Source: Salinivirgaceae bacterium (GTDB lineage: Bacteria; Bacteroidota; Bacteroidia; Bacteroidales; SZUA-534). Taken from it: a DNA stretch of 56,370 bases. Below the pieces are notes generated by a model that was given only the letters and a program-made list of their open reading frames with translations, was not told the DNA's origin and ran no database searches. A program made the position numbers and the translations under genes. Shown here one piece after another: positions 1,240 through 16,386 of this stretch (position 1 is its first letter; the number at the start of each line of letters is the position of its first letter). The stretch is taken from the NCBI GenBank assembly GCA_017557785.1, contig JAFYYA010000085.1:1-56370 (forward strand), in the 5' to 3' direction.

Positions 1240-1587
1240 TCATTTTTTATCCGCCAGAACCGTGTCGCCGTGTTCGCCCGTGCGGATTGACCACGTGTCG
1301 TCGACGGGGCTGACGAAAATGCGGCCGTCGCCGACCTCGCCCGTGCGCGCCACGCTCATAATGGCGTCAATGGCGGGCTGCACAAACTGGTCGCGGCAGA
1401 TAATTGTAATCTCGATACGCGAGATAATGTCGGTGCTGTACATCACACCGCGGTAGATTCGGTCCTCGCGGTCCTGCCCGATAGCCTTCACTTCGGCGTA
1501 CGAGAACCAGTTGATGTCGGCTTGAAACAGAGCATCTTTCACCTCGTCGAACTTTGTCCGACGAATGATTGCTTCAATCTTTTTCAT
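1240..1587 (-). CDS. glnK: P-II family nitrogen regulatory protein (GlnK-like)
   Basis: This is a 115-residue small trimeric signal protein that reports nitrogen and energy status and typically plugs the ammonium channel encoded next to it. The N-terminus MKKIEAIIRRTKFDEVKDAL is the canonical first strand and helix of P-II. The T-loop region reads GQDREDRIYRGVMY; Tyr45 and Tyr50 correspond by my alignment to Tyr46 and Tyr51 (the uridylylated one) of the E. coli proteins. The loop is one residue shorter than in E. coli and otherwise divergent, so modification cannot be assumed. The B-loop TGEVGDGRIFV and the C-terminal RTGEHGD (ATP-contact region) are present. The start is fixed by a strong AAGGAGG (1592-1598, minus strand) a few bases upstream, which is uncommon in Bacteroidota. 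It sits between a porin-like gene and amt on one strand, probably one operon. Confidence 0.93.
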   Translation of the reverse strand: MKKIEAIIRRTKFDEVKDALFQADINWFSYAEVKAIGQDREDRIYRGVMYSTDIISRIEITIICRDQFVQPAIDAIMSVARTGEVGDGRIFVSPVDDTWSIRTGEHGDTVLADKK

Positions 1588-1747: not shown

Positions 1748-2446
1748 TCAGAAAGATATTCCCACCAAGAAATACATTCGGTTTGCGGTTGGGTTAGCGG
1801 TGATTTGTGCGAACACAGGCAGAGTGAATTTCTCGAACTCAATCTCTTTTGTAGCCGAAAGGCTCAAATTGATTAAAGCAAAACCTTCGGCACCGTAAAA
1901 GTCGTTCTCCCAGGGTGTTATGCCCGCGGCTGCTTGCCAGTCGAGTCCGCCGAGTTTGAACGGTGCGGCAACCTCAAAGTACGATGAGTAAGCGTCGTCG
2001 CCGTTTGCTTTGGTGCCCATTGCGCCGTAAAAGTTTGTGTACCACCCGATTGACAGGAATCCGAAATCGTATGTCAGACCTGCCTCGTAGGTGTGGACGG
2101 TTGAGTCGGCCGAATACTCGAAGTATTTGGTGTCATCGTCGGCGCACCAGTAGTCGGTTACCATTGCCGTCAGGCCACCCACGGCGTACGAGAGCGTGAA
2201 GTCAATCTCTTTATAGCCGCTCCCGACAATGCTTGCCGAGCCCCACGCTCCGAGCGACAAACCTTTGTAATCGACTGAAAGTGAAGGTTGAATGGCCGCT
2301 CCGTCGAGTTTGCCGCCACGCCAGATATACGAACTTACCACATCGGCTCCAACTGAAGCCTCAACGCCGCCTTCACCTTCGGCGTAACTTGTTCCGGTCA
2401 TTGCCATCAACCCGATGACAATCATTGTTTTCTCAATTGTTTTCAT
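1748..2446 (-). CDS. Small outer-membrane porin-like beta-barrel protein (TorF-like), first gene of glnK-amt operon
   Basis: This is a 232-residue secreted beta-barrel protein. The start is set at ATG 2446 (MKTIEKTMIVIGLMAMT), which gives a normal signal peptide ending near TSYAEG. An in-frame ATG at 2521 would add 25 hydrophilic residues and lies in the loop of a terminator hairpin, so it is rejected. After the signal come ADVVSSYIWRG and alternating amphipathic strands rich in aromatic residues, with C-terminal FLVGISF ending in Phe as outer-membrane barrels do. The YIWRG near the N-terminus and the general layout resemble the TorF-type putative porins. As it is first in an apparent operon with P-II and the ammonium transporter, it may let nitrogen compounds cross the outer membrane; that role is inferred. 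It shares promoter and leader architecture with glnN. Confidence 0.7.
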   Translation of the reverse strand: MKTIEKTMIVIGLMAMTGTSYAEGEGGVEASVGADVVSSYIWRGGKLDGAAIQPSLSVDYKGLSLGAWGSASIVGSGYKEIDFTLSYAVGGLTAMVTDYWCADDDTKYFEYSADSTVHTYEAGLTYDFGFLSIGWYTNFYGAMGTKANGDDAYSSYFEVAAPFKLGGLDWQAAAGITPWENDFYGAEGFALINLSLSATKEIEFEKFTLPVFAQITANPTANRMYFLVGISF

Positions 2447-2503: not shown

Positions 2504-2534
2504 AAAAAAGGCTGGTTTCATCGAAGCCAGCCTT
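2504..2534 (-). terminator. Leader terminator (putative attenuator) before porin-glnK-amt
   Basis: On the minus strand AAGGCTGG (2534-2527) and CCAGCCTT (2515-2508) form an 8-bp GC-rich stem. A further TTC/GAA pairing in the loop and an uninterrupted run of T (2509-2504) follow. It lies after the stop of the short leader frame (2554) and 58 nt before the porin-like start, with no recognisable promoter between. Upstream, CCAGCC inside the leader frame (2571-2576) can pair with the GGCTGG of the 5' arm as an alternative antiterminator. Same arrangement as upstream of glnN. Confidence 0.72.
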
Positions 2535-2553
2535 GATTTTTCTCTAAATTGAT

Positions 2554-2673
2554 TTATCTGCCAACGGCCCGGCTGGTTGGGCGCGCACAGCGTTTCTGAT
2601 TATTGCGTTTCGAGTTCCAGCGGGAACCCTGCTGCAAATTCTGATTCATTCCGTTTTTAAAAGACTTTTTCAT
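2554..2673 (-). CDS. Asn/Gln-rich leader peptide of the porin-glnK-amt operon (39 aa)
   Basis: This short open frame begins at ATG 2673 and ends at TAA 2554. It carries 6 Asn and 4 Gln in 39 residues, including MNQNLQQ and RWNSKRNNQKR, the rest being mostly Lys, Arg and Ser. It begins about 65 nt after the likely transcription start and is followed by a terminator hairpin. It aligns with the 35-residue frame upstream of glnN over the block [RK]WN-(S)K-x-NNQK, where the codons AAT AAT CAG AAA are identical. I infer a leader peptide whose translation senses supply of charged Asn/Gln tRNA, as in classic amino-acid attenuators. An alternative is that the sequence is a structured regulatory RNA and the frame is incidental. 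No homologous protein family is known to me. Confidence 0.62.
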   Translation of the reverse strand: MKKSFKNGMNQNLQQGSRWNSKRNNQKRCARPTSRAVGR

Positions 2674-2739
2674 CTCGATTGCTTTTTAATTAAACCTCAT
2701 TTAATCGTTCTCTAAACAGTCCTGTTTTTATCGTTTTCT

Positions 2740-2776
2740 GACATGGCAAATATATAGCCGATTTTTAATTCGCAAC
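2740..2776 (-). promoter_or_regulatory. Promoter and dyad operator of porin-glnK-amt, near-identical to the glnN promoter
   Basis: On the minus strand the -33 element TTG (2775-2773) and the -7 element TATATTTG (2754-2747) are 18 nt apart, fitting the Bacteroidota consensus TTTG / TAnnTTTG. The spacer holds CGAATTAAAAATCG (2759-2772), an imperfect dyad. Over 37 nt this block matches the promoter at 9110-9146 in 34 positions. The match ends shortly after the -7 box, so selection appears to act on the promoter/operator itself. A shared regulator binding the spacer dyad is inferred. Confidence 0.75.
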
Positions 2777-3130
2777 TAAAAATTGGAAAATATTTTAATA
2801 ACGTTAGTGTTTTTCTTATTTTACTTACAGATTATAATTCAGTAAGCCGATTTTAGCAATATTTATTAAAAAAGGTGCGTTTTTAAAACGTTTTCACTGA
2901 CGATTTGAAATTGAAGCATTTTAGGACAATAGAGTAAATTTTGAATTTTTGAGAGATTTTTGGCGATTTTTAAGGGGTGTCGGCGCGGAAAAAGTGAATT
3001 TTTGGACGAGATATGTGATTTTTGAAGGGGGTGATAAATCCAAAAAGCATACAAATGAACGTAATCGGGCACGAAAACAACCGAAAATTGGTAATATCGC
3101 GTAATTGTTACCGATTTAGATTATTTAGTT
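2777..3130. other. Intergenic stretch, no gene seen
   Basis: AT-rich sequence between the divergent promoters of the porin-glnK-amt operon and the GAF-PAS gene. The longest open frame here (minus strand, 2866-3072) has a composition and codon pattern unlike the neighbouring genes, no homology I recognise and no start signal. I see no RNA gene or repeat. It may hold upstream regulator sites. Confidence 0.5.
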
Positions 3131-3159
3131 TTGGATTTAAACCAAACAATCTAATTTTG
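3131..3159 (+). promoter_or_regulatory. Promoter of the GAF-PAS gene
   Basis: TTG (3131-3133) and TAATTTTG (3152-3159) are separated by 18 nt, matching the Bacteroidota promoter form. The start codon at 3188 is 28 nt downstream of the -7 box. Confidence 0.6.
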
Positions 3160-3187
3160 CCACAATTTAAAACTAATAACAAGCGAT

Positions 3188-4720
3188 ATGTTTAAAAGTA
3201 GAAGTTATACCTATAATAATATAGAGCGATTGCAAACAGTTTTGACAATCGCATCAATGGCTGCGTTGGCTGCGTTGGCAGTTTTCCATTCCAACAGACG
3301 GATTGTATTGGCTGCGGCAGCGCTGGCCGGAATACTGGTTTTGGCAAATCTGCTAATCGACAAACTTGTCAACCAAAAGATACTGAAGCAGATAGATGGC
3401 TGTCTAAAACAACTCGCCACGGGCGAAGGTGTGGAAATATCAGCAAAACAGATTAAACGCCACCAAATGTTCAGGCGCATTGGCGGTGTGGCAAGACACT
3501 ATGCCGAACTGCAGCGCTACGCCGAGTGTATCGCTTCGGGGCGGAAATACGAATCGGCAAACGCCGCGGGCGACGAGTTCTATCAGTCAATCAGCAAGCT
3601 GAACCAACACCTCGACAAACTTGTGAGCGAAGAAAACGACTGGAAAGAGCAGGAACAGAAGCGCAACTGGATGAACCAGGGCGTGGCCAAATTTTCCGAC
3701 ATTATGCGGCAGTCGAACCGCTCGCTGAATGAGATTGCAATGGAACTGCTGCGCCAGCTAATCAAATACACCGACTGCAACCAAGGCGGCATTTTTGTGC
3801 GCGAAAACACTGATGATGAGTTTCTTACAATGATTGCCTCGTACGCCTACGACCGCCAGAAGTTCCCCGACAAAAAGTGCAGTCTGGAAGACGGGCTGAT
3901 TGCCGCCGCTTACTACGAAAAGGCGCCCATTTTTATGACCGACATCCCCGACGAGTATCTGACAATACGCTCCGGTTTGGGCGAAGCGTCACCGCGTTGC
4001 CTGTTCCTTGTGCCGCTCATCAGCGACGATAAAGTGCTGGGTGTTATTGAGTTGGCATCGTTCAACGTTCTCGATGAGCACAAACAAAAATTCATTGAGA
4101 AGATTGCAGAGAGTTTTGCGTCGACCTTGTCGGCATCGCACCTGAACAACACAACCGTGAAACTGCTTGAAAAAGCGCAACAGCAGGCGCAACAGCTTAA
4201 AACTCAGGAAGAAGAACTGCGCCAAAGCATTGAAGAGATGCAGACGCAACAGGAAGAGATGGAAAGCAAGCAGCACGAACTCGAAGAGAGCGAGAATCTG
4301 ATGCGCCGCATCATCGACCTTGTGCCGTATCCGATTTTCGTTAAGAATATCCATCGCCAGTATATTGTTGCAAATCAAGAAGAAGGCAAACTTTACAATA
4401 TGCCGGTTGACAGTCTGCTCGGCCACTCCGACGACGAACTTGTAAACGACATTGATGAGTTGAACGCCATCCACGAAAGTGACACCAAAGTGCTCGAACA
4501 ACGGCAGATGATAAAACTGCCAGAGCAGACCATTTCGCTTCCCGATGGCACGCGCCGTGTTTTGCAAACCATCAAAGTGCCGTTTATCAACAACATAACA
4601 CACAACCCAAACATTTTGGGCGTCTCGTTCGACCTCACATCGGTGCGCGAGATGGAACAGCAGCTGCGTAAGAGCGAAGCAAAGGTTAAAGATTTGGAAA
4701 ACAAGTTGAAGGGAAAGTAG
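3188..4720 (+). CDS. Membrane-anchored GAF-PAS sensor-like protein without a kinase domain
   Basis: This 510-residue protein has two N-terminal membrane helices (about 17-33 and 38-57), a helical linker, a GAF domain (about 178-318, with LVPLISDDKVLGVIELAS typical of the GAF core), a Gln/Glu-rich coiled coil (about 325-372) and a PAS domain (about 372-490, with RIIDLVPYPIFVKNIHRQ and a DLTSVREME end). A short C-terminal coil follows. GAF and PAS domains bind small ligands or cofactors and normally feed a kinase, cyclase or methyl-accepting domain; none is present, and the gene has no adjacent partner. The similar GAF plus QQ-rich coil layout occurs in Bacteroidota kinases and stage II phosphatases, so it may act by hetero-assembly. 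It faces away from the nitrogen operon and has its own promoter. Confidence 0.8.
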   Translation: MFKSRSYTYNNIERLQTVLTIASMAALAALAVFHSNRRIVLAAAALAGILVLANLLIDKLVNQKILKQIDGCLKQLATGEGVEISAKQIKRHQMFRRIGGVARHYAELQRYAECIASGRKYESANAAGDEFYQSISKLNQHLDKLVSEENDWKEQEQKRNWMNQGVAKFSDIMRQSNRSLNEIAMELLRQLIKYTDCNQGGIFVRENTDDEFLTMIASYAYDRQKFPDKKCSLEDGLIAAAYYEKAPIFMTDIPDEYLTIRSGLGEASPRCLFLVPLISDDKVLGVIELASFNVLDEHKQKFIEKIAESFASTLSASHLNNTTVKLLEKAQQQAQQLKTQEEELRQSIEEMQTQQEEMESKQHELEESENLMRRIIDLVPYPIFVKNIHRQYIVANQEEGKLYNMPVDSLLGHSDDELVNDIDELNAIHESDTKVLEQRQMIKLPEQTISLPDGTRRVLQTIKVPFINNITHNPNILGVSFDLTSVREMEQQLRKSEAKVKDLENKLKGK

Positions 4721-4727
4721 CGCGTCC

Positions 4728-4926
4728 GCCCTGACGGGTTTGATTTATGCGTTACACATTTCAAAGAACGTTCGCAACCAATGAAGGTTCGCCCTGAAGG
4801 GGCAAAAGAATGGTTGTTATATGATTATTGCCTGTTGCCATTACAGGGCGTTTTTCCCTTGGTTCGTATTCCCCAAGGCGCCGCTTCGCTTGCCTTGGGC
4901 TATGTGTGAATTGCCCCTTCGGGGCG
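4728..4926. repeat. REP/MITE-like palindromic element
   Basis: CGCCCTGAAGGGGCAA (4790-4805) and TTGCCCCTTCGGGGCG (4911-4926) form a 16-bp inverted repeat with one mismatch. A further CGCCCTGACGGG lies at about 4727. Inside, CCCAAGGC (4872-4879) and GCCTTGGG (4892-4899) form a second hairpin. The composition is GC-rich against AT-rich surroundings and no gene is present. It resembles the palindromic non-coding repeats of many Bacteroidota genomes; the family name is not known to me. It lies between the convergent genes ending at 4720 and 4991 and could also end both transcripts. Confidence 0.5.
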
Positions 4927-4990
4927 CTATGTTTGGATAAATTCGGGTTAGTTTGGTTGGAAACGAATAGTCCAAAGACCAAAGTCCTTT

Positions 4991-6298
4991 TCACTTCAAC
5001 CTTCCCGCAATCCACTTGTCGACGGGCTGCAGGCGCTCGTCGCTTGCGGCGGTCAGAAGCATGATGCCGATGAATGGCAGTGCCGGCACCTTATACCTTA
5101 CAAGCGCGCCCAAGACAGGCGTGGTGAGTCCGATGAGCACAAAAAGAATAACGATGAACGAAAGGCTGTACCAGACGTCGTGGTTGGCAAGGTTTTGTGG
5201 CTTCAGATAGAAAAGTCCGGCGGCCAGTACGCACAGAATAAGCACGTTTTCAATGCCGGCCACCATCATGGCAGCCGAACCGTGCTCAAAAACAGTCGGG
5301 CGCAGAAGCGATGTCAGGAAGGCTCGCGGCGAGTTGGCCACGATGCTCGCCAGTCCGTTGTCGAGCACCGGCAGATCGATGGTGCTTCCTGCCTGAACGC
5401 TCTGCACCATCATCATGAAGTCGTGCTGCTTCCAGCAGATGACATCGAACAAATCGACACCTGTAATGAATTTCGACAGCCAGGCGGCCGCAAATATCGC
5501 CGCGTGCGCTGCCAGGAACTTTACGAAAGCCTTTTTCGGCCGGCGCCGAATCCAAACCATTGCCGCAAAAGCAGGCAGCGCGGCCATCAGCACGTAGAAT
5601 TTCGACTGCATCAGCAGAAACAGGCACACCACCACCCCAATGATATTGCCCGCCGACGGCTTGTCAATCAGGCTGCGGAAGTTGTAGACAAGCAGTCCGA
5701 AAGCAAAGATGAGTATCGACTCTTTCAGCGCCCCCGACGTCCACAGCCATACCGACGGAAAGCAGAAAACCACTATCAGCAGCAGCGTGCGCTTGTGCGA
5801 AAGTTGGCGGGCGAACGACTTGTAAATCCCCCACAATCCCACAAACGCCAAAAATCCAAAGAACATATTGTGGATATGGAAGTTGCCCATCGACAGAAGG
5901 CACATCAGCGCATTGGCGCGAATGACAATGTGGTTGTCGTTGGGCAGCCCGTAATCGAACCGTTTCAGCCAGAAGTTGCAGGTGTCGTAGTATGGCATAA
6001 GGTCGGGCGACGAAGCACCGATGCTAGTCATAATCTTCAGATAATCAGCGGGGTTCTGAAACAGAACATTGTGGATGACAAGCCCGTCGTCGAAATAATG
6101 GAAAATGTCGCCGTCAGCCGACGGATAGTAAAAACTGTAGATGAAAAAAAGCGCAAAGCCGCCGGCAATCTTAGCCAGAAACAGCGCAACAAGCCATTTT
6201 CTCTCTATTCCGGGCGAATCGAAAAAACGCCATTTCCAAATGAACCAAACCAGCAGAAGCAGGTATATGAAGTAGAGAATCCAACTCATAATCGGCAA
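4991..6298 (-). CDS. Polytopic membrane protein of unknown function
   Basis: This 435-residue protein appears to have about ten or more membrane helices, starting with SWILYFIYLLLLVWFIW. A long soluble segment follows the second helix (YYPSADGDIFHYFDDG to about residue 130). The motif PSVWLWTSGALKESILIF recalls polymerase- or glycosyltransferase-like membrane proteins (Wzy/EpsG or GT-C type) of Bacteroidota, which often carry a Lys-Glu in a helix after a Trp-Ser/Thr-Gly, but I cannot assign it to a family. ATG at 6298 or 6289 could be the start. It is alone on its strand between convergent and downstream genes and shows no operon partner other than possibly the secreted protein gene upstream (6346-7131). 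Confidence 0.65.
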   Translation of the reverse strand: MPIMSWILYFIYLLLLVWFIWKWRFFDSPGIERKWLVALFLAKIAGGFALFFIYSFYYPSADGDIFHYFDDGLVIHNVLFQNPADYLKIMTSIGASSPDLMPYYDTCNFWLKRFDYGLPNDNHIVIRANALMCLLSMGNFHIHNMFFGFLAFVGLWGIYKSFARQLSHKRTLLLIVVFCFPSVWLWTSGALKESILIFAFGLLVYNFRSLIDKPSAGNIIGVVVCLFLLMQSKFYVLMAALPAFAAMVWIRRRPKKAFVKFLAAHAAIFAAAWLSKFITGVDLFDVICWKQHDFMMMVQSVQAGSTIDLPVLDNGLASIVANSPRAFLTSLLRPTVFEHGSAAMMVAGIENVLILCVLAAGLFYLKPQNLANHDVWYSLSFIVILFVLIGLTTPVLGALVRYKVPALPFIGIMLLTAASDERLQPVDKWIAGRLK

Positions 6299-6345
6299 AT
6301 ATAGGGCCGGAAAGCAAAAAACCGAAAACCGCAGTCTTCAGCTGA

Positions 6346-7131
6346 CTATTTTTTCTTGAAGATTTCGGTTTTGGTGTCGTAGTTCAGGAAGTAGTCGCCG
6401 ACGGGCAGTTTCGACACATCAGCCTTAACCCCCACGCCCTTGTCCATGATGGCGCCTTTGTCGTTGTAAATCTCATACATGGTTTCAGCCGAGAATTTAA
6501 TTTCAGTGAACGGTTTGACAAACGAATAGGTGACTTCGGCCAGCATGGTGCGGTGCTTTAGTTCCTTACCGTAGCGCGGTTTGCGGGTGTAGTCGATTTG
6601 CTTTACGCGGAAGCGGTTGTAGCCCGAGTGCAGATTGACTTCGACTGTGTAGGTGTGTGCGCCGGGCTTGCCGTCGCCTTCAACGGTGGCCACCTTTATC
6701 CACTTGTTCCAGCGGAACTGCTCAACAATGAACGGCAGCGAGCCGCACTCGTTGTTGGTGGTGAACGCCAGTTTGTCGTTTTTATCGATTTTGATGGTTG
6801 TAACCGTAAAGGTGCTTTGCGGATTCAGCACTTCAGGGTTGATGACCTTCGGCTCGCAGCCGCTTTTGTGCTTAATAACAACGCTCACATCGTCACCCTT
6901 GGCAAGGTTATGCACCGACAAGTCGATTTCGAAGGCGCTCGAGTTAATCTCATCAGATGTGGCCATCCCGTTCACGGTTATGCCCGTGATGCAGAAGCCG
7001 TTGTCGTCCGATGCGAACGGGTTCATCACATATAAGTTCTTACCCTGATAGATGCCTTTCAGCACTATCTCGCCTGCAAAACCTGTTGCGCACAAGGCCG
7101 ACAACAGTAATGTGTATATCAATCTTCTCAT
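6346..7131 (-). CDS. Secreted protein of unknown function
   Basis: This 261-residue protein begins with a clear signal peptide when started at ATG 7131 (MRRLIYTLLLSALCATGFAG). Upstream in-frame codons up to 7206 would place 25 residues before the signal and are rejected. The mature part is all-beta in appearance: an N-terminal domain (IVLKGIYQGKNLYVMNPFAS, with a later VVIKHKSGCEPKVINPE) and a second domain with alternating strands (WIKVATVEGDGKPGAHTYTV, YNRFRVKQIDYTRKPRYG). The C-terminus KLPVGDYFLNYDTKTEIFKKK resembles the short Ig-like end found on many Bacteroidota secreted proteins, including T9SS-type tails, but it is not a firm match. Function not recognised. Confidence 0.65.
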   Translation of the reverse strand: MRRLIYTLLLSALCATGFAGEIVLKGIYQGKNLYVMNPFASDDNGFCITGITVNGMATSDEINSSAFEIDLSVHNLAKGDDVSVVIKHKSGCEPKVINPEVLNPQSTFTVTTIKIDKNDKLAFTTNNECGSLPFIVEQFRWNKWIKVATVEGDGKPGAHTYTVEVNLHSGYNRFRVKQIDYTRKPRYGKELKHRTMLAEVTYSFVKPFTEIKFSAETMYEIYNDKGAIMDKGVGVKADVSKLPVGDYFLNYDTKTEIFKKK

Positions 7132-7226
7132 TTGCGAACTGCTTGTTAAAGTAGCAATTTCAAAACTAACCAAAATATTTATACGGCAAACAAATGTTGG
7201 CGGCACAATTGACCAAAGGACAAAAA

Positions 7227-7261
7227 AAATGGACTTGCGTTCAGTTTTCGCAAGTCCATTT
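7227..7261 (-). terminator. Intrinsic terminator after the histidine phosphatase gene
   Basis: AAATGGACTTGCG (7227-7239) and CGCAAGTCCATTT (7249-7261) form a 13-bp perfect stem with a 9-nt loop. Read on the minus strand it is followed by a run of eight T. It lies just past the stop of the phosphatase gene at 7270 and isolates it from the downstream secreted-protein gene. Confidence 0.85.
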
Positions 7262-7269
7262 CAGTTTTC

Positions 7270-8562
7270 TTATTTCTTGACGCTCAGCGGAATTTCTTTC
7301 AGAACGTTGCGGTAGTAGGCTTCAACTTCGTCCCACTTGTAGTATGGGGCGGTCTTGCTCTCGAGCGGCAGTTTCACTTCGTTTTCGTTGAGCAGAACCT
7401 TCACCAGAATGTCTTTCGACTTGTCCGACTTGTAGAAAATCATCTGCAGGTTGCCGCCCATCGGAATGATTTTGAAGTCGCACCAAACCTTGTAGAGTTC
7501 AGCAAAATCGGTCACTTTGGCGTTGCAGCCTTCAAGTCCCATAAGGCTTGCCAGCGGCATCAGGCCGGTGTCGTGGCCAAAGCGCAGATTGGCAGAAACG
7601 CCATTGCCGGCCAAAGCAGCGTCGGCTTCGTCAAGGAAATTGGTGAGCAGGTTGCGTGCGCACCAGGCACCGCGTGAGTCGGAATAGGGGCAGGTGCTGA
7701 AATTGGCGTACCAGTAAACGTTGGTAACCTGCCAGTTGTCGAACATCTCGTCGTCAGTGAAGAAATCGCTGAAATCAAAATCAAGATCGTCGATGTTCTG
7801 CATGTTGCACTGAAGATCGAACAACTTGCGCATGAACTGATGTGCGTTCACTTTGGTGCGAACGTAAGCAGTGTCAGAGAACACCTGTTTGATGAGCCTT
7901 TCGGGATGAACAAGAGCGTGGTCGATGGCATCGTTGGCCTTGCGGAAACCGTCGGTGCGGTTCAGGTAGCGGGTCACAGAGTCGCGCTCTTCATTGTTGA
8001 TATAGTGCATGATGCGCTTGCTCGATTCGGTGGTCACGTTCAGTGTGGGGCGCATGGCTTTCATCTTCTGCATAAAGGCGTCCATGCTGCAGAGCACGCG
8101 GTGCGAAGTTGACGATTTGACAACGATCTTTGCGTTGTCGGCAAACACTTCGGGGAACGAGTTCACCATTCGCTCAGCAATGCCTTGATGCTGATTGAAA
8201 CCTGTTTGCGTAAGGTCGCCGGCGCGGATGACACCGTCTTCGCAAAGGCGGTCGACACGGTTTTTAAGGTCTTTTCCGGCTTCGGTGAGAGCGTTGGCGT
8301 CAGCAGCCGCTTTCATCGTGCGCTGAAACATCTGATAGTCGAATCCCGAATAGTGGTAGCGCGAGCCGTGACGGCCGTAGTGGCTGATATAGAACGGCGT
8401 GTAGCCCTTCGGTGCCGGCGTCTGAGCCTTTAGTTCGGGTTGATAAACCATATTGTTGCCACCTGTTTTTTTCAGATTGGCAAGCATTTCTTCCTTTGTG
8501 GTCTGCGCCTGCAGTGTGGCAAAGCACAACACACCAATAACTGTAAGTGTTAAGCGGTTCAT
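7270..8562 (-). CDS. Secreted histidine acid phosphatase (phytase/MINPP-like branch)
   Basis: This 430-residue protein has a signal peptide (MNRLTLTVIGVLCFATLQAQ) and the histidine acid phosphatase active-site motif HYGRHGSRYH at residues 61-70. The RHG histidine is the expected phospho-acceptor. The partner motif appears later as RFGHDTGLMPLASLMGL, with the HD dyad that supplies the proton donor. Family members release phosphate from phytate, inositol polyphosphates or other phosphomonoesters. Bacteroidota homologues are periplasmic or surface exposed and some are multiple-inositol-polyphosphate phosphatases; the substrate here cannot be told from sequence. The gene stands alone with its own terminator and an upstream intergenic region of over 500 nt. 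Confidence 0.85.
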   Translation of the reverse strand: MNRLTLTVIGVLCFATLQAQTTKEEMLANLKKTGGNNMVYQPELKAQTPAPKGYTPFYISHYGRHGSRYHYSGFDYQMFQRTMKAAADANALTEAGKDLKNRVDRLCEDGVIRAGDLTQTGFNQHQGIAERMVNSFPEVFADNAKIVVKSSTSHRVLCSMDAFMQKMKAMRPTLNVTTESSKRIMHYINNEERDSVTRYLNRTDGFRKANDAIDHALVHPERLIKQVFSDTAYVRTKVNAHQFMRKLFDLQCNMQNIDDLDFDFSDFFTDDEMFDNWQVTNVYWYANFSTCPYSDSRGAWCARNLLTNFLDEADAALAGNGVSANLRFGHDTGLMPLASLMGLEGCNAKVTDFAELYKVWCDFKIIPMGGNLQMIFYKSDKSKDILVKVLLNENEVKLPLESKTAPYYKWDEVEAYYRNVLKEIPLSVKK

Positions 8563-9109
8563 AGTTGTTAGAATTTTATTACTGAAAACAAATTAACAAT
8601 TGAATTTTGAGAAATGAAAATGTGCGGCCAAAATAATCGACAAGCGGGGCAATTCTGTGGCCCAGTGATGATTGACTGCTGATTTCGTGGCAATGGCTCT
8701 TACTACAGATCAATTTACTCGTTGAATCACGAACACCGATTTTGTTGTCGGCTTTTTCAGTCACTATATATTATGGTGTGCGTGAATAACGATTTGTTTG
8801 GAAGATTGTATTGTCAGATGCGATTTGAGAATAATTATCTATGGACACCCCTTCCACGCTTCAAAACAATAACAATCCGTAACTAAACGCCCAAAATCCG
8901 CGTCGAAAAGCAACCAAACCGCGCGAATTTATTCCAAAAACTCACTGCGCACACCCGTTCACTTATATTGTTTGATTTCGATTTGTTAGCGGAAACGTTT
9001 TCTGACCAATCGGTTTTTAATAAAAAATAAAAAAATCGGCCTTTGAAATTATAAATTATAAGTATAATACGAGAATTACTAATAGAACCAAACAAATAAT
9101 CGTTTTTCT
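8563..9109. other. Intergenic stretch upstream of the divergent phosphatase and glnN transcripts
   Basis: This AT-rich stretch has no convincing gene. The two open frames on the minus strand (8579-8764 and 8883-9095) lack recognisable homology and a plausible protein composition. The segment should hold the promoter of the phosphatase gene on the minus strand, but I could not single out a good TAnnTTTG box. The glnN promoter begins at its right end. Confidence 0.5.
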
Positions 9110-9146
9110 GTTGCGATTTTAAAATCGGCTATATATTTGCAATGTC
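9110..9146 (+). promoter_or_regulatory. Promoter and palindromic operator of the glnN leader
   Basis: TTG (9111-9113) and TATATTTG (9132-9139) are 18 nt apart and fit the Bacteroidota promoter. The spacer contains CGATTTTAAAATCG (9114-9127), a perfect 14-bp palindrome lying between the two promoter elements. The 37-nt block is identical in 34 positions to the promoter of the porin-glnK-amt operon (2740-2776, minus strand). A dimeric regulator that represses, or realigns the promoter, from this site is inferred; nitrogen limitation is the obvious signal. Confidence 0.78.
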
Positions 9147-9192
9147 GAAAGACGAAAAAAGAAAGTGATTAGAAACTTAAAAAAACGAAACA

Positions 9193-9300
9193 ATGAACAA
9201 GGGCTTGAAAGGCGGCAGAATTTTCGCTTTGAATTCCAAACAGAATTCGAAATGGAATAAGAATAATCAGAAAAACCGTGTGCCTGCCAATCCAGCCTGA
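9193..9300 (+). CDS. Asn/Gln-rich leader peptide of glnN (35 aa)
   Basis: This short open frame runs from ATG 9193 to TGA 9300. It encodes 8 Asn and 2 Gln in 35 residues, clustered in LNSKQNSKWNKNNQKN. The block KWNKNNQK matches RWNSKRNNQK of the leader before the porin-glnK-amt operon, including identical AAT AAT CAG AAA codons. The stop codon directly follows CCAGCC (9292-9297), which can pair with GGCTGG of the terminator 5' arm (9326-9331), so a ribosome at the stop would cover the antiterminator sequence while one stalled at the Asn/Gln codons would leave it free. That is the logic of amino-acid attenuation and is inferred from sequence alone. It could instead be an independent small protein or part of a structured RNA. 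Confidence 0.65.
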   Translation: MNKGLKGGRIFALNSKQNSKWNKNNQKNRVPANPA

Positions 9301-9322
9301 CAGGTGATAAGAGAAGATTAAG

Positions 9323-9353
9323 AAAGGCTGGTTCAGTTGAATCGGCCTTTTTT
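9323..9353 (+). terminator. Leader terminator (putative attenuator) before glnN
   Basis: AAAGGCTGGTTC (9323-9334) and GAATCGGCCTTT (9339-9350) pair over 12 bp with two G-U wobbles around an AGTT loop, and T9348-T9353 gives the U-tract. It lies 22 nt after the leader stop and about 79 nt before the glnN start, with no promoter-like box between. The 5' arm can alternatively pair with the CCAGCC at the end of the leader frame. Its sequence (AAGGCTGG, TTC, GAA, GCCTTTTTT) is shared with the terminator at 2504-2534. Confidence 0.78.
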
Positions 9354-9431: not shown

Positions 9432-11618
9432 ATGAGCAAGTTAAGATTTGATGTTGTTCAAGATGCTTTCCGTAAGAAAGCGGTTGACATTGAGGTTCCT
9501 GAAACTCGTCCGTCGGAGTATTTTGGCGAGTTGGTTTTTAACCGCGAGAAGATGCACAAATACCTTGACGTTAAGACATTTAACGCCCTGGTTGACTGCA
9601 TTGACAACGGCAAGCCGTTGAGCACGGCCGTGGCCGACAAGGTGGCCGCTGGCATTAAGGAGTGGGCAGTCGGGCACGGAGTGACGCACTGCACGCACTG
9701 GTTCCAACCGCTGACCGAGGGCACCGCCGAAAAACACGACTCGTTTATGGAGTACGACTGGAAAGGCGGAATGATTGAGGAGTTCGACGGCAAATCGCTC
9801 GTTCAGCAGGAGCCCGACGCTTCGTCGTTCCCGAGTGGCGGAATCCGCGCAACCTTCGAAGCCCGCGGCTACACGGCCTGGGATCCCACGTCGCCTGTCT
9901 TCATTCAGGACGACACACTTTGCATTCCTACTGTATTTATCTCATACACAGGCGAATCGCTCGACTATAAGACACCTTTGAAAAAGGCCTTGAACGCCGT
10001 TTCGAACGCCGCAGTTCCAATCTGCCAAATGTTCGACCCGAAAGTTAAGAAGGTGTTCTCTTATCTAGGTTGGGAGCAGGAGTATTTCCTTGTCGATGAG
10101 GACCTTTACGCTGCCCGTCCCGACCTGATGCTCACTGGCCGCACGCTGATGGGCCACGAGTCGTCGAAGAACCAACAGTTGGACGACCACTACTTTGGCG
10201 CCATTCCGTCGCGCGTGGCTGCCTTTATGCGCGACCTTGAGATTCAGGGTCACCGCCTGGGCATTCCTTTGAAAACACGCCACAACGAGGTTGCGCCAAA
10301 CCAATTTGAGTTGGCCCCGATTTTCGGCGAAACCAACCTTTCGAACGACCAAAACCAATTGATAATGAATCTTATGCACAATGTTGCAAAGAAACACGGT
10401 TTTGTTGTTCTTCTTCACGAGAAACCATTTCAGGGAATCAACGGCTCGGGCAAGCACAACAACTGGAGCCTTGGCACCGACACCGGCACGTTGCTTCTGG
10501 CACCGGGCAAGGACGCACGCGGCAACCTGCAGTTCGTCACCTTCTTTGTGAACGTTCTGGCCGCCGTTCAGCGCTACAACGGCTTGCTCAAGGCTTCAAT
10601 CGCCACGGCAACCAACGCCCACCGTTTGGGCGCCAACGAGGCGCCACCGGCAATTGTTTCGGCCTTCCTTGGCAAGACAATGACCGATGTTCTGCACAAA
10701 TTGCTTGAAGTTCCGTCAGATACGCCGATTGAGATTGCCGGCAAGAAAGGTCAGTCAGTTGGTTTGGTTGAGATTCCTGAAATTTTCATCGATAACACCG
10801 ACCGCAACCGTACGTCGCCGTTCGCCTTCACTGGCAACCGCTTCGAGTTCCGCGCCGTGGGTTCGAGCGCCAACTGCGCCAACGCAATGACCGTTCTGAA
10901 CACCATTGTTGCCGACCAACTCGTTCAGTTTAAGGCAGATGTGGACAAGGCTATCGCCGCTGGAAAATCGAAGAACGTGGCCATTATGGACACCCTGAAA
11001 CCAATCATTGCTTCGATTATCGACGTTGTCTGCTTCGACGGCAACGGCTACAGCGATGAGTGGAACAAAGAGGCCGCACGCCGCGGACTGAACACTGAAA
11101 AGTCTGTGCCTGAAATGTTTAAAGAGTTTACAAAACCCGAAACTGTGGCAATGTTCGAGCGTATGGGCGTTTACACCGAAAAGGAACTCGAGGCCCGCAA
11201 CGAGGTTAAGTGGGAGATGTACACCAAGAAAGTGCAGATTGAGGCCCGCGTGACTGGCCGAATGGCTATCAACCACATTATTCCTGCCGCAATTGCCTAT
11301 CAGACAAAACTTTTGGAGAATATCGAGAAACTGAAAAACATTTTCCCCGACAAGTTCCAAAAACTGGCGGCCGTCGATATTGCTCTGGTTGAGGAGATTT
11401 CAGAGCGCATTGCCGAAATCCGCAGCAAGGTTGACGCAATGATTGAGGCCCGCAAGGTGGCCAACAAAATCGAGTGCGAGTATGAGAAGGCCAAAGCATA
11501 TCACGAGATTGCGGAATCTCTCTTCGACATTCGCAAGCCGATTGACAAACTCGAGGAGGTTGTGGACAACGATATGTGGCCGCTGCCGAAATACCGCGAA
11601 CTGCTGTTTATTAGTTAA
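9432..11618 (+). CDS. glnN: Glutamine synthetase type III
   Basis: This 728-residue cytoplasmic enzyme makes glutamine from glutamate, ammonium and ATP; the length is normal for the GSIII class (about 720-730), much longer than GSI or GSII. Diagnostic blocks are FPSGGIRATFEARGYTAWDP near residue 136, the nucleotide-binding NGSGKHNNW at residues 337-345, and NRTSPFAFTGNRFEFRAVGS from residue 459. The C-terminal third is helical, as in other GSIII enzymes. GSIII is the main glutamine synthetase of many Bacteroidales. It is followed by gltB and gltD on the same strand, so GS and GOGAT may be cotranscribed, although a repeat-rich 280-nt gap separates glnN and gltB. Expression is probably controlled by the palindromic promoter and by the Asn/Gln-rich leader and terminator upstream. 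Confidence 0.97.
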   Translation: MSKLRFDVVQDAFRKKAVDIEVPETRPSEYFGELVFNREKMHKYLDVKTFNALVDCIDNGKPLSTAVADKVAAGIKEWAVGHGVTHCTHWFQPLTEGTAEKHDSFMEYDWKGGMIEEFDGKSLVQQEPDASSFPSGGIRATFEARGYTAWDPTSPVFIQDDTLCIPTVFISYTGESLDYKTPLKKALNAVSNAAVPICQMFDPKVKKVFSYLGWEQEYFLVDEDLYAARPDLMLTGRTLMGHESSKNQQLDDHYFGAIPSRVAAFMRDLEIQGHRLGIPLKTRHNEVAPNQFELAPIFGETNLSNDQNQLIMNLMHNVAKKHGFVVLLHEKPFQGINGSGKHNNWSLGTDTGTLLLAPGKDARGNLQFVTFFVNVLAAVQRYNGLLKASIATATNAHRLGANEAPPAIVSAFLGKTMTDVLHKLLEVPSDTPIEIAGKKGQSVGLVEIPEIFIDNTDRNRTSPFAFTGNRFEFRAVGSSANCANAMTVLNTIVADQLVQFKADVDKAIAAGKSKNVAIMDTLKPIIASIIDVVCFDGNGYSDEWNKEAARRGLNTEKSVPEMFKEFTKPETVAMFERMGVYTEKELEARNEVKWEMYTKKVQIEARVTGRMAINHIIPAAIAYQTKLLENIEKLKNIFPDKFQKLAAVDIALVEEISERIAEIRSKVDAMIEARKVANKIECEYEKAKAYHEIAESLFDIRKPIDKLEEVVDNDMWPLPKYRELLFIS

Positions 11619-11785: not shown

Positions 11786-11828
11786 GGTGAATCGTGAAAC
11801 TGAAAAAGTTTCGATTATACGATTCACC
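11786..11828 (+). other. Two-part hairpin upstream of gltB
   Basis: GGTGAATCG (11786-11794) pairs with CGATTCACC (11820-11828), and inside it GAAACT (11796-11801) pairs with AGTTTC (11807-11812). The outer stem is 9 bp, the inner 6 bp. There is no U-tract, so it is not an intrinsic terminator. The neighbourhood also contains several copies of words like ATTCACCGATTCACCAATTC in both orientations, and a similar text occurs at 24650-24690, so it may be a remnant of a dispersed repeat. It lies about 70 nt before the gltB start. Confidence 0.5.
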
Positions 11829-11898
11829 GATTCACCAATTCGACCCCAAACGCTGGTTCACCAAAAATTACAATTCACCAATTCAACGAAAAAAGAAA

Positions 11899-14800
11899 AT
11901 GCAAACCAAAGGATTATACACCCCTGAAAACGAGCACGATGCGTGTGGTGTCGGGCTGATGGTTGACCTGAAGGGGAACAAGAGCCACCAACTGGTGGAG
12001 GACGCGCTCACGGTGCTCGACAATATGAAGCACCGCGGGGCCGAGGCCGCCGACAAGAAGAGTGGCGACGGTGCGGGCATTCTGTTGCAGATTCCGCACG
12101 AGTTTATTCTGCTGCAGGGCATTGCGGTGCCCGAGCGACTGAAATACGGCACAGGACTGGTCTTCCTACCGAAAGATAAAATATTGGCCGACAAATATTT
12201 ATCAATTATCGAGACAGAAACCTGCAAGGCTGGTTTTGAGTTGCTTAAGGTGCGCGAGGTGCCCGTCAAATCCGACATTCTGGGCGACGCCGCCAAAGCC
12301 GCCGAGCCGCGCACGGTGCAGATTTTTGTTACTGGCGCCGACGATGTAAACGCCTTTGAAACAAAACTTTACCTTCTGCGCAAGAGCATTGAGCGTCAGA
12401 TTGACGACGAGCAGTTCTACATTGTCTCGCTCTCGAACCGCGTGATTGTTTACAAGGGAATGCTCTCGGCCACGCAGTTGCGCGACTACTACGACGACTT
12501 GCGCAACCCCAACTTCACAAGCGGTCTGGCGCTTGTCCACTCACGATTCAGCACCAACACTTTCCCAACCTGGTCGCTGGCGCAGCCTTTCCGTATGGTG
12601 GCGCACAACGGCGAAATCAACACCATACGCGGCAACCGCAGTTGGATGGAGGCTCGCGAGAGCGTGCTGGCGTCGGAGGCGCTGGGCGATATGCGCAACT
12701 TCTCGCCCGTGGTTCAGCCTGGAATGAGCGACAGCGCGTCGTTCGACAATGCGCTTGAGTTCTTTGTGCGCTCGGGAATGACTCTGCCGCACGCAATGGC
12801 AATGATGGTGCCCGAATCGTTCAATGAGAAAAACCCCATAAGTAGCAGTCTGAAAGCATTTTACGAGTATCACTCGATACTTATGGAGCCGTGGGACGGC
12901 CCGGCAGCGCTTATCTTCACCGACGGTCGCTATGCCGGCGGTATGCTCGACCGCAACGGTCTGCGTCCTGCGCGCTACACCGTCACCACCGACGGCCGGC
13001 TCATTCTGGCTTCGGAGGCCGGCACAATTCATATCGACGCCGACAAAATCAAATATAACGGCAAACTTCAGCCGGGCAAGATTCTGATTGTTGATAGCGA
13101 AAACGGTCAGATTTTCAGCAACGACGAAATCAAAAAGCAGTTGGCCGACGGCTGCGACTACACCAAATGGCTCGAAACCAACCGTATAGAGTTGGCGAAA
13201 CTGCACAGCGGCCGCCACGCCGAAAACACAGTGGCCGATTTTCAGCGCAAACTTCGCTGTTTCGACTTCACACGCGAGGACGTTGAGCGCACCATTGCGC
13301 CAATGTGCACCACCGCGCAGGAGCCGCTGTCGTCAATGGGCAACGACACGCAACTGGCCGTTCTGTCGCAGCGCAAGCAGTTGCTTTTCAACTATTTCCG
13401 TCAGCAGTTTGCGCAGGTAACCAACCCGCCAATCGACCCAATCCGCGAGGAGTTGGTAATGTCACTCACGGAGTACATTGGCGCCGTGGGAATGAACATT
13501 CTGACACCAAACGAGTCGCACTGCAAAATGGTGCGTCTGCCGCAGCCTGTGCTCACCAACACCGAACTCGACACCCTTTGCAATATCCGCTACAAGGGTT
13601 TCAATACCGAAAAACTTGATATTCTGTTCGATAAGTCGGCAGGAGTTGAGGGAATGAAGGCCGCTTTGGCCGCCCTTTGCCGCGAGGCCGAACAGTCGGT
13701 TGACAAAGGTGTCAACTATATCATTCTGACAGACAGGAATATAGACGAACAGCACGCCGCCATTCCGTCGTTGCTGGCCGTGAGCGCAATCCACCACTAT
13801 CTGGTGTCGATAAAGAAACGCGTGCAGACGGCGCTGATTGTTGAGAGCGGCGAGATTCGCGAGGTTATGCACGCCGCTCTGCTGCTGGGCTACGGCGCAA
13901 GCGCAATCAACCCGTATATGGCTTTCGCCGTGATTGACGACCTTGTCCGCCGCGACGAAATCCAACTCGACTACGAGACCGCGCAGCACAACTACATCAA
14001 GGCCATCGACAAAGGTTTGCTGAAGATTATGAGCAAAATGGGCATCAGCACCATCCGCTCGTACCGCGGCGCCAAAATCTTTGAGCCGATTGGCTTGAGC
14101 AGTCAGTTGCTGGCCGATTATTTCGGCACAAGTCTTTCAACTGTGGGCGGCATCGGGCTCGACACCATCACCAACGACGCTCTGCGTATGCACGCGCAAG
14201 GTTTTGACGGTCAGGCCGAAAGCGATATTCTGCCGTTCGTCGGGCAATATTCGTTCCGCAAAGACGGAATCCGCCACGCCTGGACGCCGGAGGCCATCGC
14301 AACACTGCAACTGGCCACTCGCACAGGCAGTTACAAGAAATTCAAAGAGTTTACAAGCATCATCGATAACAAGCCGGAGCCGCTCTTCCTGCGCGATTTC
14401 TTCAGGTTCAAACAGAACCCCATCGACATCAGCGAGGTGGAGCCGGCCGAAAACATTGTGCGCCGATTCATTGGCGCGGCAATGTCGTTTGGCGCCATCA
14501 GCAAGGAGGCTCACGAGGCCATCGCGCTGGCGCTTAACAAGTTGGGCAGCCGCAGCAACACCGGTGAGGGCGGCGAGGACAACCAACGCTTCTACACCGA
14601 AAAAGACGGCGTATCGCTCTCAAGTTCAATCAAACAGGTGGCAAGCGGACGCTTCGGCGTTACGGCCGAATATCTGGTGAACGCCACCGAAATTCAGATT
14701 AAGGTGGCACAGGGCGCAAAACCCGGCGAGGGCGGACAGTTGCCCGGCTACAAGGTGAACGAGGTCATCGCACGCACGCGCAACTCGATTCCCGGAATCA

Positions 14801-16374
14801 CCCTTATATCGCCGCCGCCGCACCACGACATATACTCAATTGAGGACCTTGCGCAACTCATCTACGACCTGCGCAGCGTGAACCCGAAGGCCAAAATCAG
14901 CGTGAAACTGGTGGCTGAAAGCGGTGTGGGCACCATTGCCGCGGGCGTGGCAAAGGCAAAAGCCGACCTGGTCATCATCTCGGGCGCTGAAGGCGGTACA
15001 GGAGCATCGCCTGCGTCGTCAATCCGCTATGCGGGAATATCGCCTGAAATCGGCTTGGCCGAAACACAGCAAACGCTGGTAATGAACGGTTTGCGCGGCT
15101 CAATCGAGGTGCAGACCGACGGCCAACTCAAGACCGGCCGCGACGTGGTGGCAATGGCCCTTCTGGGTGCTGGCGAGTTCGCCTTCGGAACTGCTCAACT
15201 GATTGTTCTGGGCTGCGTTCTTATGCGCAAATGCCACACCAACGCCTGCCCTGTGGGCGTGGCCACTCAAGACCCGAAACTGCGCGAGCGGTTCCTGGGA
15301 CGGAGCGAGTATCTGGTTAATTACTATATGTTTATGGCCGAAGAGGTGCGCGAGTATCTGGCTCAAATGGGCTTCCGCAAGTTCGACGACATCATCGGTC
15401 GCACCGATTTGATTGAGATTGACTCGACGAAGTTCACCGACAAGACACGCGGGCTCGATTTCAGCCGCATCCTGACTAAAGTGGATAACGGCGCAGCCAC
15501 TCGCAAAACGTCTGAAAACCAATACGATTTGTCGAAAACAATGGACGCACGCCTGATTGCCGACGCCGCAGAGGCTCTCGACTCGCAAAGGCCTGTCCGC
15601 TTGAGTTACAACATCTTGAACACCGACCGCGCTGTGGGCGCAATGCTCTCGGGCGAGGTTGCAAAGCGTTACTGCGACGCCGGTCTGCCGGACAACACCA
15701 TCAACGTGCAGTTCAGTGGTTCGGCCGGACAGAGTTTCGGCGCCTTCCTAATGAAGGGAATCAGTTTCAGTGTTGAGGGCGAGGTGAACGACTACGTGGC
15801 CAAAGGTCTTTCGGGAGGCTGCATAAGTGTTTATCCGTCAAAGAAATCGAACTTCAATCCGCAGGAGAATATCATCGCCGGAAACACCATTCTGTATGGC
15901 GCAACAAGCGGCGAGGTTTACATAAGCGGACGCGTTGGCGAGCGTTTTGCAGTGCGCAACTCGGGCGCCACAGCCGTTGTCGAGGGTACCGGCGACCATT
16001 GCTGCGAGTATATGACCGGCGGCCGCGTGGTGGTTCTGGGCACAACGGGGCGCAACTTCGCAGCCGGTATGTCGGGCGGCCTGGCCTACGTCTGGGACAA
16101 GAATCACGACTTCGACTACTACTGCAATATGGATATGATTGAGTTGAGCCTGATTGAGGAGAAATCGCGCCGCGACGAACTCTTTGAACTCATCAGCCGC
16201 CACTACCGTCACACCGGCTCGCCGCTCGCAAAGCAAATGATTGAGCACTGGTCGGACTACATCGACGACTTTATTCAGGTGACACCGATTGAGTACAAGC
16301 GCGTGCTGCACGAAGAGGCTCTGCGCCAAATTGAGAAGAAAATGGAAACTGTTCAACAAGAAGAGAATTATTAG
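11899..16374 (+). CDS. gltB: Glutamate synthase, large (alpha) subunit
   Basis: This 1491-residue iron-sulfur flavoprotein moves the amide nitrogen of glutamine to 2-oxoglutarate, giving two glutamates. The start is set at ATG 11899, so that a 15-residue propeptide (MQTKGLYTPENEHDA) precedes the catalytic Cys16 of the glutamine amidotransferase domain (CGVGLMVD). An earlier in-frame ATG at 11794 would read through a repeat-rich leader and is rejected. The N-terminal amidase domain (about 16-420) is followed by the central and FMN-binding synthase domains, with GEGGQLPGYKV and SGAEGGTGASP. The 3Fe-4S cysteines are at 1106, 1112 and 1117 in CVLMRKCHTNAC. A C-terminal beta-helix domain rich in Gly (from about 1230) is present. 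Length and domain order are those of bacterial GltB. It is followed 12 nt later by gltD. Confidence 0.97.
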   Translation: MQTKGLYTPENEHDACGVGLMVDLKGNKSHQLVEDALTVLDNMKHRGAEAADKKSGDGAGILLQIPHEFILLQGIAVPERLKYGTGLVFLPKDKILADKYLSIIETETCKAGFELLKVREVPVKSDILGDAAKAAEPRTVQIFVTGADDVNAFETKLYLLRKSIERQIDDEQFYIVSLSNRVIVYKGMLSATQLRDYYDDLRNPNFTSGLALVHSRFSTNTFPTWSLAQPFRMVAHNGEINTIRGNRSWMEARESVLASEALGDMRNFSPVVQPGMSDSASFDNALEFFVRSGMTLPHAMAMMVPESFNEKNPISSSLKAFYEYHSILMEPWDGPAALIFTDGRYAGGMLDRNGLRPARYTVTTDGRLILASEAGTIHIDADKIKYNGKLQPGKILIVDSENGQIFSNDEIKKQLADGCDYTKWLETNRIELAKLHSGRHAENTVADFQRKLRCFDFTREDVERTIAPMCTTAQEPLSSMGNDTQLAVLSQRKQLLFNYFRQQFAQVTNPPIDPIREELVMSLTEYIGAVGMNILTPNESHCKMVRLPQPVLTNTELDTLCNIRYKGFNTEKLDILFDKSAGVEGMKAALAALCREAEQSVDKGVNYIILTDRNIDEQHAAIPSLLAVSAIHHYLVSIKKRVQTALIVESGEIREVMHAALLLGYGASAINPYMAFAVIDDLVRRDEIQLDYETAQHNYIKAIDKGLLKIMSKMGISTIRSYRGAKIFEPIGLSSQLLADYFGTSLSTVGGIGLDTITNDALRMHAQGFDGQAESDILPFVGQYSFRKDGIRHAWTPEAIATLQLATRTGSYKKFKEFTSIIDNKPEPLFLRDFFRFKQNPIDISEVEPAENIVRRFIGAAMSFGAISKEAHEAIALALNKLGSRSNTGEGGEDNQRFYTEKDGVSLSSSIKQVASGRFGVTAEYLVNATEIQIKVAQGAKPGEGGQLPGYKVNEVIARTRNSIPGITLISPPPHHDIYSIEDLAQLIYDLRSVNPKAKISVKLVAESGVGTIAAGVAKAKADLVIISGAEGGTGASPASSIRYAGISPEIGLAETQQTLVMNGLRGSIEVQTDGQLKTGRDVVAMALLGAGEFAFGTAQLIVLGCVLMRKCHTNACPVGVATQDPKLRERFLGRSEYLVNYYMFMAEEVREYLAQMGFRKFDDIIGRTDLIEIDSTKFTDKTRGLDFSRILTKVDNGAATRKTSENQYDLSKTMDARLIADAAEALDSQRPVRLSYNILNTDRAVGAMLSGEVAKRYCDAGLPDNTINVQFSGSAGQSFGAFLMKGISFSVEGEVNDYVAKGLSGGCISVYPSKKSNFNPQENIIAGNTILYGATSGEVYISGRVGERFAVRNSGATAVVEGTGDHCCEYMTGGRVVVLGTTGRNFAAGMSGGLAYVWDKNHDFDYYCNMDMIELSLIEEKSRRDELFELISRHYRHTGSPLAKQMIEHWSDYIDDFIQVTPIEYKRVLHEEALRQIEKKMETVQQEENY

Positions 16375-16378
16375 GAGG
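16373..16378 (+). promoter_or_regulatory. Shine-Dalgarno site of gltD
   Basis: AGGAGG overlaps the stop of gltB (TAG at 16372-16374) and lies 8 nt before the gltD ATG. A full Shine-Dalgarno sequence is unusual in this window and fits translational coupling of the two subunits. Confidence 0.75.
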
Positions 16379-16386
16379 ATAGAGAT

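Follow-up and report, generated by a model that had tools for sequence, protein, structure and literature searches.

Candidate Asn/Gln leader-peptide attenuators upstream of nitrogen-assimilation operons in gut Bacteroidales

Leader-peptide attenuators are known from trp, his, leu and other amino-acid operons, and the Bacteroidetes cis element Bacteroid-trp (RF01692) is a Trp-codon attenuator. Glutamine can also be read by RNA directly, in that the glnA glutamine riboswitch (RF01739) binds its ligand. Ammonia is an important nitrogen source for rumen and gut bacteria, and to our knowledge the sensing of nitrogen sufficiency in Bacteroidota is poorly understood. Here we describe two short leader frames, rich in asparagine (Asn) and glutamine (Gln) codons, in a 56,370-nucleotide (nt) contig of a Salinivirgaceae bacterium (JAFYYA010000085.1, assembly GCA_017557785.1; hereafter the window), one preceding a porin-glnK-amt operon and the other preceding glnN, the gene for glutamine synthetase III. 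In their parts, and in the way these are ordered, spaced and conserved, the candidate leaders are consistent with ribosome-mediated attenuation that responds to Asn/Gln-tRNA charging, a reading to which we assign a probability of roughly 0.85. This assessment draws on the frames and terminators, the Asn/Gln enrichment, the placing of the codons, the complementarity between frame end and terminator, and the hairpin predicted to surround the complementary segment.

Attenuation as such is not new in the phylum, because Flavobacterium psychrophilum has been proposed to carry leader-peptide attenuators ahead of amino-acid biosynthesis operons (PMC9723704), and long 5′ untranslated regions (UTRs) of Bacteroides thetaiotaomicron hold short frames "reminiscent of leader peptides" (PMC7366714). 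The relevant passages of these two papers mention no leader for glutamine, asparagine, glnN or glnK-amt. A ribosome-mediated attenuator of cysS, uORFC-8-2, has been proposed from comparative data in Rhodobacterales (PMC8632094). The glutamine riboswitch RF01739 is described beside genes for PII, glutamine synthetase, ammonium transporters and glutamate synthase, in some cases in tandem, in a paper whose tables also list Bacteroid-trp (PMC2864571). A literature search, with most subscription journals outside its scope, found no leader attenuator for glutamine or asparagine, or for glnN or glnK-amt.

A sequence-only reading of the window had pointed out both frames, the terminators with T-runs that end at 2504 and 9353, and the complementarity of CCAGCC near each frame end to GGCTGG in the terminator, all of which were borne out. 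Both leaders share one layout, namely a TATATTTG box that we take to be the Bacteroidota-type −7 promoter motif, a short ATG frame, a terminator and the first gene:

2747..2754, minus strand: promoter box TATATTTG (−7 type) of the porin-glnK-amt operon, from sequence
2554..2673, minus strand: porin leader frame, 39 amino acids, 10 of them Asn or Gln, from open-reading-frame analysis
2596..2655, minus strand: Asn/Gln codon stretch of the porin leader, presumed stall region, from sequence and the codon placing across leaders
2558..2590, minus strand: predicted hairpin P1 with AACCAGCC in its loop (shuffle p 0.025; loop 1 of 2 nt, loop 2 of 0 nt)
2571..2576, minus strand: CCAGCC, predicted antiterminator strand, from sequence and the complementarity test
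2527-2532, minus strand: GGCTGG, 5′ arm of the porin-side terminator, from sequence
2504..2534, minus strand: intrinsic terminator AAGGCTGG..CCAGCCTT with T-run to 2504, −13.5 kcal/mol
1748..2446, minus strand: porin-like first gene (open frame from 2521; presumed start 2446)
1240..1587, minus strand: glnK (P-II; Pfam PF00543)
9132..9139, plus strand: promoter box TATATTTG, −7 box of the glnN transcript, from sequence
9193..9300, plus strand: glnN leader frame, 35 amino acids, 10 of them Asn or Gln, from open-reading-frame analysis
9232..9276, plus strand: Asn/Gln codon stretch of the glnN leader, presumed stall region, on the same grounds
9282..9305, plus strand: predicted hairpin P1 (GCCTG/CAGGT) with CCAGCC in its loop, spanning the stop codon (p 0.095, not significant alone)
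9292..9298, plus strand: CCAGCCT, predicted antiterminator strand, partner AGGCTGG at 9325-9331; its CCAGCC core (9292-9297) can pair with GGCTGG
9324..9353, plus strand: intrinsic terminator AAGGCTGGTTC AGTT GAATCGGCCTT with T-run to 9353, −17.1 kcal/mol
9432..11618, plus strand: glnN, glutamine synthetase III (Pfam GSIII_N, Gln-synt_C-ter)
11794..17727, plus strand: gltB and a gltD-like subunit gene (Pfam)

From this arrangement we infer the translation, stalling, read-through, physiological signal and order of events that follow, by which each operon would stand behind a ribosome-gated transcription attenuator. Once RNA polymerase had started from the TATATTTG promoter, a ribosome would enter the leader frame. 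With ample charged Asn-tRNA and Gln-tRNA, the ribosome would reach the stop codon and mask both the CCAGCC segment and P1, such that the downstream hairpin would form and transcription would terminate. If these charged tRNAs were scarce, the ribosome would wait on Asn/Gln codons, mainly 24 to 65 nt upstream of the segment across leaders; P1 would then fold, its loop would pair with the GGCTGG arm, and the blocked terminator would allow transcription of porin-glnK-amt or of glnN, perhaps with the gltB and gltD-like genes, which may be co-transcribed with it and which lie downstream of glnN in a number of relatives as well. The placement of the antiterminator segment in a hairpin loop is an addition to the model of the sequence-only reading.

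To collect relatives, genome contigs were scanned with the window GlnN, and the best 80 loci (73-99% identical) were kept. Their titles point largely to ruminant guts, and they are assigned to Salinivirgaceae, Bacteroidaceae, Prevotellaceae, Muribaculaceae, Porphyromonadaceae, Bacteroidales and others. At least one Asn/Gln leader with a terminator occurs in 38 of these 80 glnN loci, seven of the 38 belonging to the window's own genus, and such leaders recur before glnN, glnK and asnB in other Bacteroidales, so that the alignment check proposed in the sequence-only reading came out in favor of its idea. We assembled 47 leaders, the two of the window included, from 45 scan rows by removing L042:7292 (no nitrogen gene, a chance match) and L074 (a secondary frame) and by adding L085, L094, L103 and L106, four leaders that had been spotted by eye. 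Of the genes looked for, the first to follow the leader is glnN in 18, glnK in 16, asnB in 9 and amt in 2, and all 47 stand before nitrogen or glutamine-using genes. The leader at L063:107-220, MEGIVTYNCLSNQMNDKQNLNDNRVPASPCCFTSRII, which is tallied under glnK, precedes with its terminator glmS-pyrG. NCBIfam identifies these two genes as coding for glutamine-using enzymes, and the leader would extend the regulon to such enzymes in that lineage.

Leader Asn+Gln content reaches 50%, and the leaders of relatives differ in sequence while sharing this make-up, as illustrated by those beginning MTTTRKNIAQQQNQQQNLND (L062) and MIYSINQQQSQRRLQQEQ (L114) and by the further dissimilar leaders MIGNSRQIANILSNNQQQNNQQQNQEQNQGPTSLAL before glnK (L075) and that beginning MSKGLVYIVANNNQNNNQNQNNNQVRMV before asnB (L051). 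Peptides of different groups have little in common beyond Asn/Gln content, which argues against the idea that the short frames encode functional small proteins and that the hairpins are ordinary terminators of their mRNAs. The position of all 47 leaders before nitrogen or glutamine-using genes and the complementarity that persists between terminator arm and frame end speak against it too, and we consider this explanation very improbable. In its favor, and equally in favor of attenuation, alignment gaps within the coding part common to the leaders of the window's genus occur only in multiples of three, whereas those in the 5′ UTR do not. This genus sample comprised 11 genomes, in which 10 glnN and 10 porin loci were found and read, and the leader is present in all 20 (10/10 of each). 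The glnN set has invariant CCTGCCAATCCAGCCTGACAGG and invariant terminator arms. Both arms of the porin-side terminator are likewise unchanged in 10/10 loci, and the porin set keeps CCAGCC except for CCAGTC in L039, which still pairs by G·U. The promoter box is also retained, as TAT[AC]TTTG 5′ of the porin leaders and as the glnN-side −7 box (10/10 loci each).

The association of Asn/Gln-rich frames with terminators was assessed on both strands of 1.26 Mb, which contain 6,790 ATG frames of 20-60 amino acids. A strong terminator, defined by our own score and located within 110 nt 3′ of the frame, lies behind 25 of the 28 frames with at least 30% Asn+Gln, compared with 107 of the 6,762 others (Fisher p 5e-41, the loci not being independent); L074, set aside later, is still counted among the 25. 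When all 190 residue pairs were ranked, Asn/Gln came first with 25 matches, 25/25 on the plus strand, followed by Asn/Ser with 20, 17 of them on the plus strand.

For complementarity, the 47 leaders were cut to 29 by sequence similarity, and ten more leaders, their loop segments chosen by eye, were added to give a set of 39, in which the segments of L106 and L052:5805 were re-picked. In this non-redundant set, Asn and Gln make up a share of 0.50-0.81 at 24-65 nt upstream of the terminator-pairing segment, compared with 0.35 (18-23 nt), 0.13 (12-17 nt), 0.01 (6-11 nt) and 0.08 (0-5 nt). Leaders were chosen for Asn/Gln content and not for its place, so the placing of the codons counts as evidence and their number does not. 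With a ribosome stalled at 24-65 nt, the segment would stay accessible together with most of its hairpin, which agrees with the proposal of the sequence-only reading that stall codons are positioned to expose the antiterminator. The same leaders use AAT 202 times and AAC 62 times for Asn, versus 493 and 2,161 times in the 80 glnN genes, a preference that perhaps stems from slower decoding or from less RNA structure.

In the set of 29, frame ends are complementary to the 5′ arm of their own terminator beyond dinucleotide shuffles (combined p 3e-10), and own arms score above swapped arms (mean 17.3 versus 15.9; permutation p 1e-4); because the loci are related, these and the other p-values overstate independence, a caution that belongs with the adverse points gathered below. 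By a tally that used the best register for each leader, a choice favoring pairing, all six core positions are pairable in 32 of 39 leaders, and the third position is A-U in 28, G-C in 8, G·U in 3 and A·C in none (Fisher p 2.7e-6). Seven leaders fetched later and treated by an automatic procedure gave a complementarity p of 0.0024, with two of the seven below 0.05 singly.

The flanks of the segment, with the segment itself held unpaired, fold into P1 better than shuffles do (combined p 7e-15, 39 leaders). Taken singly, 18 of 39 leaders reach p<0.05, and L053, L067, L085 and L106 lack any signal. Tight framing, with the innermost pair at most 3 nt 5′ and at most 1 nt 3′ of the segment, is predicted in 30 of 39 leaders, as against 22.6% of 1,950 shuffles; the seven later leaders gave a hairpin p of 0.014 (one of seven singly below 0.05) and tight framing in four (null 22.3%). 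The resulting layout is that of an H-type pseudoknot with a short loop 1, a pairing of about 6-9 base pairs between hairpin loop and terminator arm, and an absent or minimal loop 2, the distance from segment to arm being 20-81 nt with the 3′ strand of P1 included. On these models, the chances that the read-through form of the antiterminator is a pseudoknot are about even.

A classical three-segment attenuator (pairings 1:2, 2:3 and 3:4), in which P1 pauses or competes, the signal is the same Asn/Gln charging and no pseudoknot forms, would employ identical parts. P1 occupies the position expected of a pause hairpin, just past the control codons, and tight framing is missing in 9 of 39 leaders and in three of the seven later ones. 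In the classical scheme, however, strand 2 sits in a stem, whereas here the strand is placed by prediction in the P1 loop (loop 1 at most 3 nt and loop 2 at most 1 nt in 30/39), and P1 and the antiterminator can therefore coexist. We regard this alternative as a serious contender whose chances fall somewhat short of even. In 39/39 leaders the loop/arm duplex by itself is less stable than the terminator (−7.8 to −14.7 versus −13.5 to −25.1 kcal/mol); P1 and the duplex jointly could rival the terminator, and the balance is probably kinetic.

The constancy of the loop, whose core reads CC[AG]G in 38 of the 39 leaders and TCAG in the last one, and the occurrence of TGTGTGAATCTACCAGTCGGATGAACAC in several glnK leaders might instead suggest a trans-acting factor, such as an RNA-binding protein, a small RNA or free Gln or Asn, that acts on P1 or its loop with the frame being incidental. 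Such a factor would leave the Asn/Gln richness and the codon-to-segment distance unexplained, and the P1 stems differ between leader groups. Moreover, Rfam gave no family at gathering score in the window, and no T-box or glutamine riboswitch in the window or in 14 loci. We judge this explanation improbable.

Several observations limit the case for attenuation by Asn/Gln-tRNA charging or weigh against it. The complementarity of the window leaders themselves is weak relative to shuffles (p 0.063 and 0.193), so its significance depends on the relatives; CCAGCC(20-50 nt)GGCTGG occurs at four forward places in the source genome, two of which are these leaders, and a reversed control occurs at three. 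The sequence-only reading had looked to compensatory changes in CCAGCC/GGCTGG; complementarity is indeed kept, one position exchanging A-U for G-C, but the fifth core position is without covariation (p 0.68), a GAC arm giving a mismatch in 6 of 9 leaders, and the sixth is mismatched in 5 of 39. Several leaders mismatched at either position gain pairs in another register. As for the NNQK block, porin leaders keep it in 2/10 genus loci, and glnN leaders have NNQK in 2/10, NNRK in 4/10 and NNYK in 4/10, so that NNQK is ruled out as a conserved element. Gln is wholly missing from the glnN leaders of L007-L009, and on these grounds the retained control signal in the window's genus appears from the sequences to be Asn, not Gln, with Asn and Gln together elsewhere. 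A related leader before glnN and downstream of asnB in L056, L058 and L065 has two Asn and no Gln. The leader peptides evolve fast and show little synonymous excess, which is weak proof of translation and is also what would be expected of attenuators. Finally, distribution among relatives is patchy. None of 20 distant glnN loci (L011-L030) has a leader upstream, the lone weak match, in L020, not being upstream of glnN. In one Prevotellaceae genus, 14 of 30 glnK loci have the leader and 16 have none, four of these 16 with a porin gene directly upstream. The genus of L117 has it in 8 of 30 glnN loci and that of L071 in 1 of 28, L071 itself, counts that include fragments and divergent copies.

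Horizontal spread of glnN together with its leader is possible. The leader-bearing window GlnN (9432-11618) is 73-85% identical to GlnN of other families, and the second GlnN of the source genome (G000:C79:62171-64354) is 56% identical to it; L071 GlnN is 60-67% identical to that of its congeners. A plasmid search with the glnN leader gave no match. A strict pattern, ACCAGTC..GGCTGGT..ATCAGCC, had 0 matches in 393 genomes of the order, which is little informative because its gap of 15-45 lies below the approximately 60 nt of the largest glnK leader group and misfits the window leaders.

Within the window, the promoter blocks of the porin and glnN leaders resemble each other, and the two are therefore probably paralogous cassettes. 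AATAATCAGAAA, at 2593-2604 (minus) and 9262-9273 (plus), accounts there for two of its six occurrences in the source genome. The porin-like gene (1748..2446) is present in 10 of 11 genus genomes; Pfam and NCBIfam gave no match to it, and its name is that of the sequence-only reading. The source genome has one glnS above the family cut-off. No leader was found upstream of the second glnN copy of the genus (3/3 regions fetched) or at its glmS loci (9/9), and full-length asnB was not found in the source genome, an incomplete metagenome-assembled genome. A third leader, with 15 Asn in 41 residues, precedes a second, divergent amt beside asnB in two members of the genus (L042:1549-1674 and L091:3764-3889). 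At L101:7603-8000, a second hairpin lies between an Asn/Gln leader with its terminator and the glnN gene downstream, and at L052:5805-5918 a second leader lies within the cluster, between amt and asnB; these two arrangements are possibly tandem attenuators. The window also encodes a GAF/PAS-domain protein (3188-4720), divergent from the porin-glnK-amt leader and a possible sensor, and has an open frame of 3,298 codons at 34470-44366.

Taken together, and as far as can be read from sequence, the most likely role of the leaders is to turn on nitrogen assimilation in a cell that is short of Asn and Gln. The broader proposal is finely balanced: that gut Bacteroidales possess a nitrogen regulon without a protein sensor, in which stalling at Asn/Gln codons yields an H-type pseudoknot antiterminator through which ammonium uptake and the synthesis of glutamine and asparagine are controlled together, along with glmS-pyrG in one lineage. 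If true, it would supply a concrete sensor, charged Asn/Gln tRNA read by the ribosome, ahead of the entry genes of nitrogen assimilation.

Compared with described systems, the general mechanism and the phylum are those of the F. psychrophilum and B. thetaiotaomicron proposals. The Rhodobacterales element, as presented in its source, differs in its Cys codons, its cysS target and its alpha-proteobacterial host. RF01739, as far as its source describes it, is a cyanobacterial riboswitch without a leader frame, and RF01692 belongs to the trp operon; neither matched in the sequences submitted to Rfam. The sequences combine enriched pathway codons, a terminator before the gene, a conserved alternative pairing and matching codon placement. 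As in the trp, his and leu attenuators, a short frame rich in codons for the pathway product precedes a terminator before the gene, and the 5′ arm of that terminator has an alternative partner downstream of the codons. Unlike in those operons, the signal here would be Asn/Gln, control would bear on ammonium uptake, glutamine synthetase III and asparagine synthetase, and the antiterminator strand is predicted in a hairpin loop, in pseudoknot geometry. For an attenuator, each of three features would be out of the ordinary, namely the amino acids sensed, the genes controlled and an antiterminator carried in a loop, and the Asn/Gln leaders probably represent a new form of ribosome-mediated attenuation.

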